DNA from: Plantactinospora endophytica
GTDB lineage: Bacteria > Actinomycetota > Actinomycetes > Mycobacteriales > Micromonosporaceae
DNA length: 64,000 nt
Reading direction: 5' to 3'
NCBI RefSeq assembly: GCF_016862915.1
Contig: NZ_BONW01000001.1
Location: 496,001 to 560,000 of the forward strand
Shown here: piece by piece, positions 6,157 through 27,509 of the stretch
How positions within the stretch are numbered: position 1 is the first letter of the stretch
Layout: each line of letters opens with the position of its first letter
Notes under the pieces: model-generated
The model's database searches: none
What the model was told of the DNA's origin: nothing
The model's input: only the letters and a program-made list of their open reading frames with translations
Made by a program: the position numbers and the translations under genes

Positions 6157-7035
6157 ATGGCACGGAGTCGCATGAGTCAGCACCGCCCCGTAGGCACGCC
6201 CGGCCGCGTCGGCGCCGTGCCGGCGCTTCCGGATCTTCCTGAGGCGACGGTCGCCCGGCTCCCCGAATACCTACGTGCCCTGCACAATCTCGCCGAAACC
6301 GGCCACGACACGGTCTCCAGCGAGGAGTTGGCGACGGCGGCCGGGGTCAACTCGGCCAAGCTGCGCAAGGACCTCTCACAGCTCGGCTCGTACGGCACCC
6401 GGGGCGTGGGCTACGACGTCGCCCTGCTGATCGACCAGATCGAGTTCGTGCTCGGGCTCACCCAGTGTCGGGCGGTCGCCCTGGTCGGCGTGGGTAATCT
6501 CGGTCACGCCCTCGCCGGGTACGCGGGCTTCGCCGGTCGCGGCTTCCGGATCGCGGCGCTCTTCGACGCCGACCCGGCCCGGCTCGGTGAAGTGATCAAC
6601 GGGCTGGTGGTCCGGCACATCGACGAGTTTCCGCAGGTGGCCGCCGAGGAGAGCATCGCGATCGGGGTTATCGCCACCCCGGCCACCGCCGCGCAGGGCG
6701 TCGCCGACCAACTCGTCGCCGCCGGGGTGACCAGCATCCTCAACTTCGCGCCGTGCGTGCTCGTGGTGCCGGACGGCGTCGACGTCCGCAAGGTCGACCT
6801 CGCCATCGAGCTACAGATCCTCTCCTTCCACGAGCACCGCAAGGCGGCGCTGACCGGGCTGCCGGCCACCGCCGGGTCGGGACTCGCTCCGGCGGGCGCC
6901 GGACGGGCCACATCGAACGGCTCCTCCCCGGCGGGGCTGACCGCCCTGCCGGGCGGGCTCGCCGCCACCGGCACCACCGAGGCGGCGCCCACCGGAACGC
7001 TCCGGTCGACGAACGCGGAGGCTGTCGGCTCATGA
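6157..7035 (+). CDS. rex: Redox-sensing transcriptional repressor Rex
   Basis: A 292-residue NADH/NAD+ sensor of the Rex family. The winged-helix DNA-binding part covers about 20-95, with the hallmark KLRKDLSQLGSYGTRGVGYDV. The Rossmann domain follows with VGVGNLGHAL near 110-120 and the C-terminal swapping helix near KVDLAIELQ. A 60-residue Ala/Gly/Thr-rich tail extends beyond the usual length of about 220-250. ATG 6157 (GAGGA upstream) and ATG 6172 (GGAG upstream) are both possible; longer starts would enter the operator. The gene overlaps hemA by ATGA, so haem synthesis is co-transcribed with its redox regulator. Confidence 0.95.
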   Translation: MARSRMSQHRPVGTPGRVGAVPALPDLPEATVARLPEYLRALHNLAETGHDTVSSEELATAAGVNSAKLRKDLSQLGSYGTRGVGYDVALLIDQIEFVLGLTQCRAVALVGVGNLGHALAGYAGFAGRGFRIAALFDADPARLGEVINGLVVRHIDEFPQVAAEESIAIGVIATPATAAQGVADQLVAAGVTSILNFAPCVLVVPDGVDVRKVDLAIELQILSFHEHRKAALTGLPATAGSGLAPAGAGRATSNGSSPAGLTALPGGLAATGTTEAAPTGTLRSTNAEAVGS

Positions 7036-8501
7036 ATCTGCTCGTCGTCGGTGCGTCCCACCGCACCGCGCCGGTCGCCATCCTGGAGCGGCTCGCCGTC
7101 TCCGGCACCGAGCTGCCGGAGATGCTCGCCCGGCTGCTCGCCCAGCCGTACGTCGGCGAGGCGGTCGTCGTCTCCACCTGCAACCGGGTCGAGGTCTACG
7201 CCGCCGTCACCGGTTTCCACGGCGGGCTGGGGGACATCTGCGCGGTGCTGGCCGGGCACGCCGGGGCCGCCCCGGCCGAGCTGGCCAACCACCTCTACGT
7301 GCACTACGACGGCGCGGCGGTCGAGCACGCCTTCCGGGTCGCCGCCGGGCTCGACTCGATGGTGGTCGGCGAGGCGCAGATCCTCGGCCAACTGCGGGAC
7401 GCCTACCACGCCGCCGGCGAGGCCGAGGCGCCCGGCCGGTTGCTGCACGAGCTGATGCAGCAGGCGCTGCGGGTGGGGAAGCGGGCACACGCCGAGACCG
7501 ACATCGACCGGGCCGGGCAGAGCGTGGTCAGCGCCGCGCTCGACCTGGCCGCCACGCACTTCGGCGGCAGCGTCGAGGGCCGCCCGGTGCTGGTGGTCGG
7601 GGCCGGCTCGATGGGCGCGCTGGCCGTGGCGACGCTGTCCCGGCTGGGCGCCGGCCCGGTGGGGATAAGCAATCGGGGCCACGACCGGGCGCTCCGGCTG
7701 GCCGAGGCGTACGGCGCGACGGCGGTGCCGATCGCCGAACTCCCCACCGCGCTATCCACAGTGGACATAGTAGTCGCCGCCACCGCGTCGATCGAGCCGG
7801 TACTCACCCGGGAGACGGTGGCCCGGGCGCTGGGGAACCGCGCGACGGACCGGCCCGATCCACTGGTGCTGCTCGACCTCGCGGTACCCCGGGACATCGA
7901 GCCGGCGATCGCCGAGCTGCCCGGCACGGTGGTGGTCGACATCGACGGACTGGCCGCCGCCCAGCCGATCGGACCGGCCGCCGCCGACACCGCCGCCGTC
8001 ACCCAGATCGTCGCCTCCGAGGTCGAGGCGTTCCTCACCTGGCTGCGCGGCGCGGACGTCGCGCCGACCGTGGCGGCACTGCGGGCCCGTGCCGACGAGG
8101 TGGTCAGCGCCGAGCTGCGCCGGCTCGGGCAGCGCCGGCCGGACCTGACCGACGACCAGCGTGCCGAGGTGAGCCACACGGTGCACCGGGTGGTGCAGCG
8201 GCTGCTGCACTCGCCGACGGTGCGGGTCCGGCAACTCGCCGCCGAACCCGGCGGAGACCAGTACGCCGCCCTGCTCCGGGAGCTCTTCGACCTGGAGGTA
8301 CCGGTCACCTCCCAGGCGGACACCGTTCCGGAACTGGCCGCCGCCGAGCTGGCCGGGGTGCCCGCCGGCAACCGGTTGACCGGTCTCGCCGGCCTGCCCG
8401 GCCTCGGTGACCTGCCGGCCATCGGCGGTCAGGCCGACCTCGGCACCGGCCCCGCCCTGCGCGCCCCGGTGCCCCGACAGCAGTCCGGAGGAGAACGATG
8501 A
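7032..8501 (+). CDS. hemA: Glutamyl-tRNA reductase
   Basis: A 489-residue enzyme that reduces glutamyl-tRNA(Glu) with NADPH to glutamate-1-semialdehyde, the first committed step of haem and cobalamin tetrapyrroles. The N-terminal GASHRTAPV and the catalytic Cys50 in STCNR are intact, followed by GLDSMVVGEAQILGQL and the NADPH-binding VVGAGSMG near 190. The start codon overlaps the rex stop in ATGA. A Gly/Ala/Leu-rich tail of about 50 residues follows the dimerisation domain. The stop overlaps the next small ORF, again in ATGA. Confidence 0.97.
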   Translation: MNLLVVGASHRTAPVAILERLAVSGTELPEMLARLLAQPYVGEAVVVSTCNRVEVYAAVTGFHGGLGDICAVLAGHAGAAPAELANHLYVHYDGAAVEHAFRVAAGLDSMVVGEAQILGQLRDAYHAAGEAEAPGRLLHELMQQALRVGKRAHAETDIDRAGQSVVSAALDLAATHFGGSVEGRPVLVVGAGSMGALAVATLSRLGAGPVGISNRGHDRALRLAEAYGATAVPIAELPTALSTVDIVVAATASIEPVLTRETVARALGNRATDRPDPLVLLDLAVPRDIEPAIAELPGTVVVDIDGLAAAQPIGPAAADTAAVTQIVASEVEAFLTWLRGADVAPTVAALRARADEVVSAELRRLGQRRPDLTDDQRAEVSHTVHRVVQRLLHSPTVRVRQLAAEPGGDQYAALLRELFDLEVPVTSQADTVPELAAAELAGVPAGNRLTGLAGLPGLGDLPAIGGQADLGTGPALRAPVPRQQSGGER

Positions 8502-8653
8502 CCCAGGTTCGGGCCGATGCCGGCCGGGCCGCCGGCGCGGCGCGGAGCGACCTCGCCGGGTGCACCGGGATGACGGCATGGAGCGGGACGACGGCGTGGA
8601 GCGAGATGACGGCGTGGAGCGGGGTGACGGCGTGGAGCGGGGTGACGGCATGA
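8498..8653 (+). CDS. Small ORF linking hemA and hemC (51 residues, hexapeptide repeats)
   Basis: Begins at ATG 8498 with GGAGGAG 5 nt upstream, overlapping the hemA stop in ATGA, and ends at TGA 8651-8653, overlapping the hemC ATG in ATGA. The product begins MTQVRADAGRAAGAARS and ends in repeats of the form (M/V/T)TAWS(G/E). The other three cistrons of this operon are joined by the same ATGA device, so this ORF turns the 148-base hemA-hemC gap into a continuous coupled chain. I know no homologue. It may act only as a translational coupler, or be a real peptide. The repeat half is also open in the hemC frame, which weakens the evidence from frame openness alone. Confidence 0.6.
   Translation: MTQVRADAGRAAGAARSDLAGCTGMTAWSGTTAWSEMTAWSGVTAWSGVTA
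8569..8652 (+). repeat. 18-bp tandem repeat running into the hemC start codon
   Basis: Four full 18-base units (8569-8586, 8587-8604, 8605-8622, 8623-8640) and a 12-base partial unit that ends exactly with the hemC ATG. The core is GGCGTGGAGCGGGGTGAC with one to three differences per copy. Each unit carries GGAGCG, so several weak ribosome sites are stacked before hemC. Confidence 0.9.
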
Positions 8654-9615
8654 CCGCGCTGCGGCTCGGCACCCGGGGCAGTGCGCTCGCCCTCGCCCAG
8701 TCCCGGGGCTTCGCCGACGCCCTGACGGCGGCCACCGGCCGCGAGGTCGAACTGGTCGAGATCGTCACCGCCGGCGACCGGTCGAGCGCGCCGGTGCACC
8801 GGTTGGGGGTCGGGGTCTTCGTCTCGGCGCTGCGCGACGCGCTGGCCGCCAACGAGATCGACTTCGCGGTCCACTCGTACAAGGACCTGCCCACGGCCGG
8901 GCAGGCGGGGCTGCACATCGCGGCCGTACCGCCCCGGGAGGACCCGCGCGACGCGCTGGTCGCCAAGGACGGCCGTACGCTGGCCGAACTGCCGCCCGGC
9001 GCCACGGTCGGCACCGGTGCGCTGCGCCGGATCGCCCAGTTGCACGCGCTCGGACTCCAGCTCACGGTGGTACCGATCCGCGGCAACGTGGACACCCGCG
9101 TCAGGCGGGTGCACGGCCCGGAGGCGGATCTCGACGCGGTGGTGCTGGCCCGGGCCGGGCTGGTCCGACTGGGTCGGGCCGAGGAGATCACCGAAACCAT
9201 CGACCCGATGCTGATGCTGCCGGCACCCGCCCAGGGTGCGCTGGCGGTGGAGTGCCGGATCGACGACGCGGAACTGGTCGAGCTGCTCGGCGTACTCGAT
9301 CATGCACCGACCCGGGCCGCGGTCACCGCGGAACGGGCGTTCCTGGCCACCCTGGAGGCCGGGTGCAGTGCCCCGGTCGCCGGATACGCCGAACTCGCCG
9401 AGGGCGACGACGGCGATGAGATCTATCTGCGCGGGGCGGTGATCAGCCCGGACGGCACCCGTGACATCCGGCTGTCCCGCACCGGTACGCCCGCCGAGGC
9501 GACGGAGATCGGTAAGGCGCTCGCCGCCGAACTCCTCGACCTCGGCGCCGACTCGATCCTCGGCACGCCTACGGAATCCGGCGCGAGGACCCAGCATCTT
9601 GGAGCTACAGAATGA
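8650..9615 (+). CDS. hemC: Porphobilinogen deaminase (hydroxymethylbilane synthase)
   Basis: A 321-residue enzyme that joins four porphobilinogens into hydroxymethylbilane. The start LRLGTRGSALALAQ, the FAVHSYKDLPT loop and IRGNVDTRVRR are all present, and Cys239 in EAGCSAPV is the dipyrromethane cofactor attachment site. ATG 8650 is chosen since it fits the family start and is coupled to the preceding small ORF; an upstream ATG at 8578 in frame would add a repetitive MERDDG-type extension. It overlaps hemD by ATGA. Confidence 0.95.
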   Translation: MTALRLGTRGSALALAQSRGFADALTAATGREVELVEIVTAGDRSSAPVHRLGVGVFVSALRDALAANEIDFAVHSYKDLPTAGQAGLHIAAVPPREDPRDALVAKDGRTLAELPPGATVGTGALRRIAQLHALGLQLTVVPIRGNVDTRVRRVHGPEADLDAVVLARAGLVRLGRAEEITETIDPMLMLPAPAQGALAVECRIDDAELVELLGVLDHAPTRAAVTAERAFLATLEAGCSAPVAGYAELAEGDDGDEIYLRGAVISPDGTRDIRLSRTGTPAEATEIGKALAAELLDLGADSILGTPTESGARTQHLGATE

Positions 9616-25598: not shown

Positions 25599-27438
25599 TC
25601 TTCACGACCTCTTCCAGCATGGTCTCCAGCTCGGTGGCGGTGAACGGCAGCCCCCGGACCTGGTTGTAGGGGATCGCGTCGACCAGGTAGCGGGCCCGGA
25701 TCACGTGGGCGAGCTGGCCGAGGTTCATCTCCGGGATCACCACCCGCTCGTAGCGGCCCAGTACCTCGCCGAGGTTGCCCGGCAGCGGAGCCAGGTGCCG
25801 CAGGTGCGCCTGGGCCACCGGCAGGCCGCGCTGGCGCAGCCCACGGCAGGCCGCGCCGATCGGCCCGTACGTCGAGCCCCAGCCGAGCACCAGCACCCGG
25901 GCGTCCGAGTCGGGATCCTCCACCTCGACGTCCGGCACCTCGATCGCCTCGATTCGGGCCGCCCGGGTACGCACCATGAAGTCGTGGTTCGCCGGGTCGT
26001 ACGAGATGTCGCCGGTCTTGTCGGCCTTCTCCAGACCGCCGATCCGGTGCTCCAGCCCCGGCGTGCCCGGGATGGCCCACGGCCGGGCCAGCGTCGCCGG
26101 GTCGCGCAGGTAGGGAAGGAAGGTCTTGCCGTCCTCGCCGTTCGGCGTGGTGGCGAACTCCACCCGCAGGTCCGGCAGCGAGTCGACGTCCGGCAGCAGC
26201 CACGGCTCGGAGCCGTTCGCCACGTAGTTGTCCGACAGCAGGATCACCGGGGTGCGGTGGGTCAGCGCGATCCGGGCCGCCTCCAGCGCCGCGAAGAAGC
26301 AGTCCGACGGCGAACGCGGGGCGATCACCGCGACCGGTGCCTCGCCGTGCCGGCCGAAGAGCGCCATGTTCAGGTCGGCCTGCTCGGTCTTGGTCGGCAT
26401 GCCGGTGGACGGACCGGCCCGCTGCACGTCGACGATGACCAGCGGCAGCTCCAGGGCCACCGCCAGCGAGATCGTCTCGCCCTTCAGCGCCACACCGGGG
26501 CCGGAGGTGGTGGTGACACCGAGCGCGCCGCCGTACGACGCGCCGAGCGCCGCCCCGATCGCCGCGATCTCGTCCTCGGCCTGCATCGTGGTGACACCGA
26601 ACCGCTTGTGCTTGCTCAGCTCGTGCAGGATGTCCGAGGCCGGGGTGATCGGGTACGCCCCCAGGAAGACCGGCAGCCCGGACCGCACACCGGCGGCGAC
26701 CAGGCCGAGCGAGAGCGCCGCGTTGCCGGTGATGTTCCGGTATGTTCCCGGGTTCATCTTGGCCGGCTTGACCTCGTAGCGGACCGCGAAGTCCTCGGTC
26801 GTCTCGCCGAAGTTCCAGCCGGCCTTGAAGGCGGCGGTGTTCGCCGCGACCAGCTCCGGCCGGGCCGCGAACTTGCGCTCCAGGAACCGGATCGTCGACT
26901 CGTAGGGCCGGGAGTACATCCAGGAGAGCAGGCCAAGCGCGAACATGTTCTTGGCCCGCTCGGCGTCCTTCTTCGAGACGTCGTGCTCGGCCAGCGCGCC
27001 GACGGTCATCGAGGTCAGCGCCACCGGGTGCAGCACGTAGCCGTCCAGCGAGCCGTCGTCGAGCGGACTGGCCTGGTAGCCCACCTTGGCCAGGTTGCGC
27101 CTGGTGAACTCGTCGGTGTTGACGATGATGTCCGCGCCGCGCGGCAGGTCGGCCAGGTTGGCCTTCAGCGCGGCCGGGTTCATCGCGACCAGGACGTTGG
27201 GGGCGTCGCCCGGGGTCAGGATGTCGTAGTCCGCGAAGTGCACCTGGAAGCTCGACACTCCGGGCAGGGTGCCGGCGGGGGCGCGGATCTCCGCGGGGAA
27301 GTTGGGCAACGTCGAGATGTCGTTGCCCAGTTGAGCGGTTTCCGAGGTGAATCGGTCGCCGGTGAGCTGCATGCCGTCGCCGGAGTCCCCGGCGAACCGG
27401 ATGACCACCCGATCCAGTTGTTGGACCTGCTTGCTCAC
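25591..27438 (-). CDS. korA: 2-oxoglutarate (2-oxoacid):ferredoxin oxidoreductase, fused gamma-alpha subunit
   Basis: A 615-residue fused subunit. The gamma domain (about 1-190) begins VVIRFAGDSGDGMQLTG; the alpha pyrimidine-binding domain starts near 215 with GAYPITPASDILHELS and TTTSGPGVALKGE, and the C-terminal domain II has VLGWGSTYGP. It forms the oxygen-tolerant two-subunit KGOR known from actinobacteria. The GTG start overlaps the stop of a 24-residue upstream ORF in GTGA. The ferredoxin partner is not in the window. Confidence 0.93.
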   Translation of the reverse strand: MSKQVQQLDRVVIRFAGDSGDGMQLTGDRFTSETAQLGNDISTLPNFPAEIRAPAGTLPGVSSFQVHFADYDILTPGDAPNVLVAMNPAALKANLADLPRGADIIVNTDEFTRRNLAKVGYQASPLDDGSLDGYVLHPVALTSMTVGALAEHDVSKKDAERAKNMFALGLLSWMYSRPYESTIRFLERKFAARPELVAANTAAFKAGWNFGETTEDFAVRYEVKPAKMNPGTYRNITGNAALSLGLVAAGVRSGLPVFLGAYPITPASDILHELSKHKRFGVTTMQAEDEIAAIGAALGASYGGALGVTTTSGPGVALKGETISLAVALELPLVIVDVQRAGPSTGMPTKTEQADLNMALFGRHGEAPVAVIAPRSPSDCFFAALEAARIALTHRTPVILLSDNYVANGSEPWLLPDVDSLPDLRVEFATTPNGEDGKTFLPYLRDPATLARPWAIPGTPGLEHRIGGLEKADKTGDISYDPANHDFMVRTRAARIEAIEVPDVEVEDPDSDARVLVLGWGSTYGPIGAACRGLRQRGLPVAQAHLRHLAPLPGNLGEVLGRYERVVIPEMNLGQLAHVIRARYLVDAIPYNQVRGLPFTATELETMLEEVVKNA

Positions 27439-27509
27439 TGCTGCACCTCGCTTCGCTCGGCCCGGTCGGACGGGCTGAGCTCAGGGGTGACCTCGCCTTG
27501 CTCGGCCAC
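27435..27509 (-). CDS. Putative 24-residue leader ORF coupled to korA
   Basis: GTG 27509 is preceded by AAGGAGG at 4-5 bases and opens a 24-codon frame beginning MAEQGEVTPELSPSDRAER and ending in TGA that overlaps the korA GTG as GTGA. Third positions are nearly all G or C. The SD for this ORF is far stronger than the GAGGTG in front of korA, so korA translation probably depends on ribosomes finishing it. The peptide itself has no recognisable function. Confidence 0.5.
   Translation of the reverse strand: MAEQGEVTPELSPSDRAERSEVQQ

Follow-up and report, generated by a model that had tools for sequence, protein, structure and literature searches.

The 51-codon small open reading frame (smORF) located between hemA and hemC in Plantactinospora endophytica is probably the decayed copy of an insert similar to the mycobacterial interspersed repetitive units (MIRUs), with an amplified 3' end, which on sequence grounds would act as a ribosome relay and not as the gene of a micropeptide. 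MIRUs are said to go back to Supply et al. in 1997. An element of this type would have landed on an old ATGA junction of hemA and hemC in an ancestor of most Plantactinospora species, displacing hemC, and the old start and ribosome site of hemC would have become those of the smORF. The first codon of the element ORF, of about 26–27 codons, would overlap the upstream stop and its stop codon the downstream start; the ribosome would end hemA, start the smORF, end the latter on the start codon of hemC and start hemC, by a presumed translation of the smORF and a presumed termination and re-initiation at each ATGA. The insertion would in this way have left the translational coupling intact. In the lineage of P. 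endophytica the 3' end of the element, that is its ribosome site and start, would have been amplified to a frame-neutral array of about five 18-bp copies.

The window, that is the whole stretch of 64,000 nucleotides that was analysed, has the gene order rex-hemA-hemC-hemD, and on the basis of the ORF list and of translation the ATGA overlaps are placed at 7032 (rex/hemA), 8498 (hemA/smORF), 8650 (smORF/hemC) and 9612 (hemC/hemD). A preliminary description of this DNA had already reported the 51-codon ORF at 8498-8653 and the four ATGA overlaps, whose coordinates and frame are correct; the GGAGGAG site that it had assigned to the smORF is indeed present at 8487-8493, and the C-terminal (M/V/T)TAWS(G/E) repeats that it had read in the peptide correspond to an 18-bp tandem array (8566-8649, 4.7 copies, 90% matches). 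HemC proper opens MTALRLGTR at 8650 by translation and is 94% identical to the HemC of P. mayteni. The features of the locus are the following:

7032..8501, plus strand: hemA (glutamyl-tRNA reductase), from ORF and translation; its 3' end contains the ribosome site of the smORF
8487..8493, plus strand: GGAGGAG ribosome-binding site, duplex energy -9.5; a similar site stands directly before hemC in relatives
8498..8653, plus strand: 51-codon smORF, the putative relay; one ATGA joins its start to the hemA stop, another its own stop to the hemC start
8498..8578, plus strand: 27-codon part homologous to the leader of genome G004, by codon alignment and in-phase profile test
8563..8652, plus strand: about five 18-nt repeat units, by the tandem array and by comparison with the element end
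8639..8645, plus strand: GGGGTGA, present ribosome-binding site of hemC, by sequence and duplex energy
8650..9615, plus strand: hemC (porphobilinogen deaminase), by ORF, translation and orthologues

The usual arrangement of the two genes is a direct one. Because a direct hemA/hemC NTGA overlap, generally after a good ribosome site, occurs in 213 of 236 unique junctions, mostly of Micromonosporaceae and of their nearest relatives by HemC, the ATG and the GGAGGAG of the smORF would represent the old start of hemC. In this family sample 298 of 300 genomes gave a match, and the junctions derive from the matches listed and from 80 further loci; 263 loci were entered, with those of the element searches excluded, 259 had both genes (L011, L012, L013 and L298 missed one) and 236 were unique. 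Junctions were called by tblastn queries with hemA cut at ELFDL. Besides the direct junctions there are 11 relays and 12 rows read by eye, which comprise eight TGATG overlaps (L031, L311, L312, L313, L317, L318, L319, L322), longer hemA/hemC overlaps in L061 and L088, a direct junction with a frame fault in hemC (L326) and an artefact (L307, whose genome, G113, is direct in L148). The frame fault of L326 (G037) lies near the start of hemC and is perhaps a sequencing error. After this reading, no hemC both displaced and unlinked was found among the 236 unique junctions.

A wider sample of the class, in which 251 of 296 genomes matched, consisted of 60 places chosen to spread over genera and of the 30 best loci; of the 90 loci entered, 87 had both genes (L393, L416 and L428 did not). 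Direct junctions were 79, TGATG was read in L351 and 8-nt overlaps in L405 and L409 (by eye), and relays were absent from all 87; the remaining five, all of family f2 (L419, L422, L427, L431, L433), have no overlap, and therefore the hemA-hemC link is not universal. In the hemA-hemC spacer of L419 (genome G519 of family f2), where the genes do not overlap, a 16-nt tandem array (CGCTGAACTTCGATTC and variants) was seen by eye.

In the 11 relay junctions, counted as about seven lineages, hemC has moved away from the hemA stop, out of frame with it, and each junction carries one or two small ORFs with NTGA overlaps; these leaders, single or paired, range from 10 to 51 codons. Within Plantactinospora, compared through the genome of the window and six congeners, the leaders that end on the hemC start have 51 codons in the window, 22 in G002, 27 in G004 and 12 in G003, and G001 has two tandem leaders of 26 and then 16 codons, which form a two-step relay; codon alignment recognises homology with the 22-codon leader of L005/L014 and the 27-codon leader of L008. 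As for the conservation of the frame in relatives, on which the preliminary description had made its interpretation depend, the answer is mixed: the three species whose leaders are homologous keep the frame open, but G005 and G006 have no separate leader ORF, an intact hemC and a direct junction. In the tree built on hemA and hemC, G005 is placed outside, and G001 with G003 are apart from the window with G002, G004 and G006; the last three are grouped with the window in no fixed order. G006, in which the direct junction is accompanied by an element-like start of hemC, is grouped with G002 and G004 in spite of being direct, and therefore loss or recombination must be assumed. The simplest history would be one insertion after the split of G005, followed by decay in the clade of the window, by collapse in G006 and by amplification of the 3' end in the window; separate insertions may instead have occurred.

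Outside this genus, Planosporangium mesophilum has a 25-codon relay and its congener L033 a direct junction; in fact, L030 and L033 differ by the presence and absence of the element at the junction within one genus. The other relays have 28 codons in Actinorhabdospora, 16 in Micromonospora G174, 11 and then 26 in the two-step relay of Phytomonospora, 10 in G048, where by eye the ribosome site and start are tandemly duplicated, and 35 in Virgisporangium, whose reading is uncertain because another in-frame ATG exists.

As a lone observation the double overlap could be due to chance. Spacers of 152-154 nt drawn at random from genomic DNA and placed between ATGA and hemC form a relay in 33.5% of 4,000 trials; with 60,000 spacers of 30-155 nt drawn likewise, direct in-frame fusion occurs in 26% and relay in 33%, corresponding to a probability of 0.45 of a relay given that the junction is not direct. 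Since about 33% of random spacers form a relay, the argument rests on the comparative pattern. The relay found in 7/7 displaced lineages has a p of about 0.004 if relay is random given displacement, a value that weakens if the lineages share one event, and with the three or four lineages lacking a recognisable element p is about 0.09 or 0.04; the frame arithmetic over lineages is thus a modest support for the link.

The leaders of G001 and Planosporangium open with ATGAGCGAGCGCAGCGA, a dispersed motif, and the dispersed element has about 80 nt and encodes MSERSER... in an ORF that mostly has 26-27 codons. The 20-nt form of the motif has 10 exact copies in the genome of the window, and its reversed control has 0 copies in any of 12 genomes; when one mismatch is allowed, the genome of the window gives 18 matches versus 2 for the reversed control. 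The 25-nt form is found in 19 of 296 class genomes, which extends a MIRU-like element family over the family of the window and five other families of the class sample. Among the loci returned, an ORF of 10-40 codons is present in 29/35 element copies of the genus set and in 25/27 of the class set, with longer ORFs, not counted, in 6/35 and 2/27. These copies end in NTGA in 26/29 and 25/25 cases, respectively (51/54 overall), and the NTGA-ending copies that overlap an ORF of at least 100 codons are 22 in the genus set and 24 in the class set. The three copies with a different ending (L177, L203, L209) are apparently one locus in three Plantactinospora species, with a 12-codon element-like ORF that ends TAGTG by a 1-nt overlap. 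Tandem copies are 74 or 77 nt apart and, together with presence and absence in congeners, are suggestive of element mobility.

A sequence-only model of the element recognises at least 36 matches in the genome of the window and at least 11 to at least 70 in each of the six congeners (E 0.01 or less), counts that are lower bounds, with 150 candidates scored per genome. Matches occur in 5/17 order-mates, three of these five with one marginal match, and within the neighbouring family f2 a single marginal match (E 0.0097) comes from genus g45 (11 genomes). The gene next to hemC in the operon, hemA, is an element target as well: in Yinghuangia an element copy (L082:976-1056) and in Actinophytocola a degenerate one (L092:1104-1170) end on the hemA start.

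The final search of the junctions was carried out with a 16-sequence nhmmer model, filters off, on ten loci (42 kb), and its E-values are rough. The best matches are the copies of G001, Planosporangium, L082, G174 and L092; in particular, the spacer of G001 contains a full element (E 5.3e-20) and part of a second (E 2.9e-6), that of Planosporangium mesophilum a full element (E 2.7e-14) and that of Micromonospora G174 a shortened one (E 4.1e-6). The leader of G004, whose 27 codons are the commonest length of the element ORF, matches the model with 17.4 bits (E 2.6e-4), and the match ends on the leader's stop. A second match in L092 has 16.2 bits, and an opposite-strand match inside the hemC of L030, surely due to chance, has 15.0 bits, less than G004 and more than G002 and G006. 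In fact, the leader of G002 reaches 11.9 bits (E 0.013), again with an end on the leader's stop, and the hemC start of G006 reaches 11.3 bits (E 0.02) against model positions 1-22. The leader of the window has 5.0 bits (E 2.7) over 8593-8653, the sixth of eight matches in the window. An earlier nhmmer profile gave weak matches only (G004 E 0.68, window E 5.2), and the spacer of the window searched against its own genome found itself and short matches (59 bp at 80%, 28 bp at 93%) and no second good copy of the smORF.

The descent of the window copy from the element is therefore argued from its homology to the leaders of G004 and G002 and from its own 3' end. In the in-phase ungapped scoring, 2 of 28,424 coding fragments reach the score of G004 and 83 that of the window core; without the 3' end (positions 5-66) the numbers become 115 and 1,367, respectively. 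In a test of the 3' end, designed with the resemblance already in view, each of 9,405 NTGA sites was scored by its preceding 23 nt against 44 element ends: 6 sites reach the value of G004, 7 that of the window and 16 that of G002. The sites that reach the G004 and window values are L168, L030, L295 (the same as L030), L006, L092 and the tested leaders, and among 292 direct hemC starts 0 reach G004 or the window and 4 reach G002. By eye, the last 18-nt unit, GAGCGGGGTGACGGCATG, equals the 3' end of the consensus element at 17/18 positions. On these comparisons, which are weak for the letters of the window copy by themselves, the part at 8498..8578 is probably a MIRU-like unit in decay.

A spacer of other origin, due to tandem duplication or to an unrelated insertion and chained by chance, would also explain the locus without the element. 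The chaining of random spacers in 33% of trials, the E of 2.7 that the window leader taken alone has against the element and locus L329, where by eye the ribosome site and start seem to have been duplicated in tandem into a 10-codon relay, are in agreement with such an origin; it is nevertheless unlikely given the 27-codon length, the model matches of G004 and G002 that end exactly at the leader stops and the 3'-end ranking. The alternatives weighed here are not mutually exclusive.

It is rather unlikely that HemC starts upstream, in frame within the repeats, with an N-terminal (VERGDG)n extension and an incidental smORF frame. The frame of hemC is open upstream of 8650, with an ORF listed from 8407, the 18-nt units place ATG or GTG in this frame and some direct orthologues have longer HemC N-termini, with a gap up to 77 nt. 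The duplex energy is -12.6 kcal/mol upstream of the present hemC ATG and equally -12.6 at the GTG 18 nt upstream of it, values to be compared with -9.5 kcal/mol at the smORF start, with a median of -11.2 kcal/mol for 213 direct hemC starts and with a background of -3.4 kcal/mol at 600 positions inside hemC. Against the extension, the LRLGTR core is preceded by no more than 4 residues in 159/213 direct orthologues (gap not above 8 nt), the hemC frame of G004 has a stop that leaves 14 codons before the ATG, and the last 14 hemC-frame codons of G002 and G004 differ by 2 synonymous and 4 non-synonymous changes, few changes that give no sign of constraint. As regards the relay reading, hemC need not rely wholly on the smORF, because it has a strong ribosome site of its own (GGGGTGA, -12.6), by which, as predicted from duplex energy, it can recruit ribosomes independently as well.

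The same repeats could be read as variable-number translation entry modules, whose repeat number would tune the output of HemC or the length of its N-terminus; the element's ribosome site and start would then be present about five times in the array, every copy with an ATG or GTG in the hemC frame. This proposal is quite improbable; if it were true, the array would represent a MIRU-derived evolvable dial in haem synthesis.

The preliminary description had proposed a dedicated translational coupler that sets the HemC level by ribosome traffic. The coupling itself agrees with the comparison, since the link is kept in all 11 displaced junctions; "dedicated" and "sets HemC level" are unsupported, because the small ORFs vary in length, sequence and number and are missing from G005 and G006, and because the DNA apparently comes from a dispersed element. 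Selection of the smORF for setting or modulating the HemC level, through ribosome traffic or repeat number, could account for the retention of the link at every relay and for the multiplication of the ribosome-site-plus-start module in the window; leaders of 10 to 51 codons, single or paired, their absence in two congeners and the seeming derivation of the DNA from an insertion element make it very improbable.

The functional micropeptide, also suggested in that description, has in its favour an open frame and a good ribosome site and is rejected as extremely improbable, since pN exceeds pS in all three leader comparisons while hemC and the hemA tail are constrained. Among G004, G002 and the window the pN/pS values of the leader are 0.297/0.113, 0.122/0.059 and 0.218/0.141, on few sites (17-22 synonymous) and with four repeat units of the window left out; in the same comparisons hemC has pN 0.027-0.045 and pS 0.138-0.202, and the last 60 codons of hemA have pN 0.020-0.024 and pS 0.117-0.198. 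On these few sites purifying selection on the leader amino acids was not found in 3/3 pairs. Moreover, 24 of the 51 codons of the window smORF are repeat units without counterpart in the leaders of G004 and G002, the lengths of the three leaders differ by multiples of three (15 and 72 nt) and, element copies aside, leaders of different lineages have no evident common sequence; the leader peptide is probably without function.

Small leader ORFs coupled to a downstream gene, as the smORF would be, are present in the tap-repA1 and repY-repZ plasmid systems, whose leader cistrons are regulated by antisense RNA or by a pseudoknot. MIRUs, as presented in passages of PMC12548453, are short, repetitive and apparently mobile units that insert at start codons, and their internal ORF is coupled to the gene with a -4 nt spacing that likely limits the effect of insertion; class I MIRU is 77 nt (excerpt of PMC4128351), and some evidence indicates that MIRU copy number affects the transcription of the downstream gene (excerpt of PMC3635867). 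The dispersed element resembles what these excerpts describe in its ORF of mostly 26-27 codons, its -4 overlap and the tandem spacing of 74 or 77 nt; it shares the MIRU-type traits of a short unit repeated genome-wide, a same-orientation 4-nt overlap and insertion at start codons and, by analogy in these features, works like a MIRU. It differs in its occurrence in the family of the window and several others, the likeness being one of described architecture, and the window copy differs in being decayed with its own 3' end amplified. The way of inserting is probably that known from mycobacteria, here in another actinobacterial branch.

Passages of PMC12548453 also report that short ORFs may serve solely to deliver ribosomes and have a biotechnological use; the smORF is similar to these upstream ORFs in being short, in the overlap of its stop with the start that follows and in a product that is probably irrelevant, and differs in being located between two operon genes and in that it would itself be started by upstream coupling. 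In titles and abstract openings no published account of such an element outside mycobacteria and none of a hemA/hemC small ORF was found, which does not prove that there is none. Mechanisms of this kind are known; what is new is the host group, the two-step relays, the amplification of the ribosome site and the repeated targeting of one junction.

The junction is a natural experiment on translational coupling, because close relatives have its direct, one-step and two-step versions, which makes the cost of the link and its benefit measurable. The locus also suggests a decay route for such an element, in which the peptide drifts and the two overlaps persist. ORFs of this kind may be missed by gene finders or merged with genes. 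Another element-like small ORF, degenerate, VAEQGEVTPELSPSDRAERSEVQQ*, is located on the minus strand of the window at 27509-27435 and ends GTGA; the best match of the element model in the window (27437-27468, E 0.0056) falls within it.
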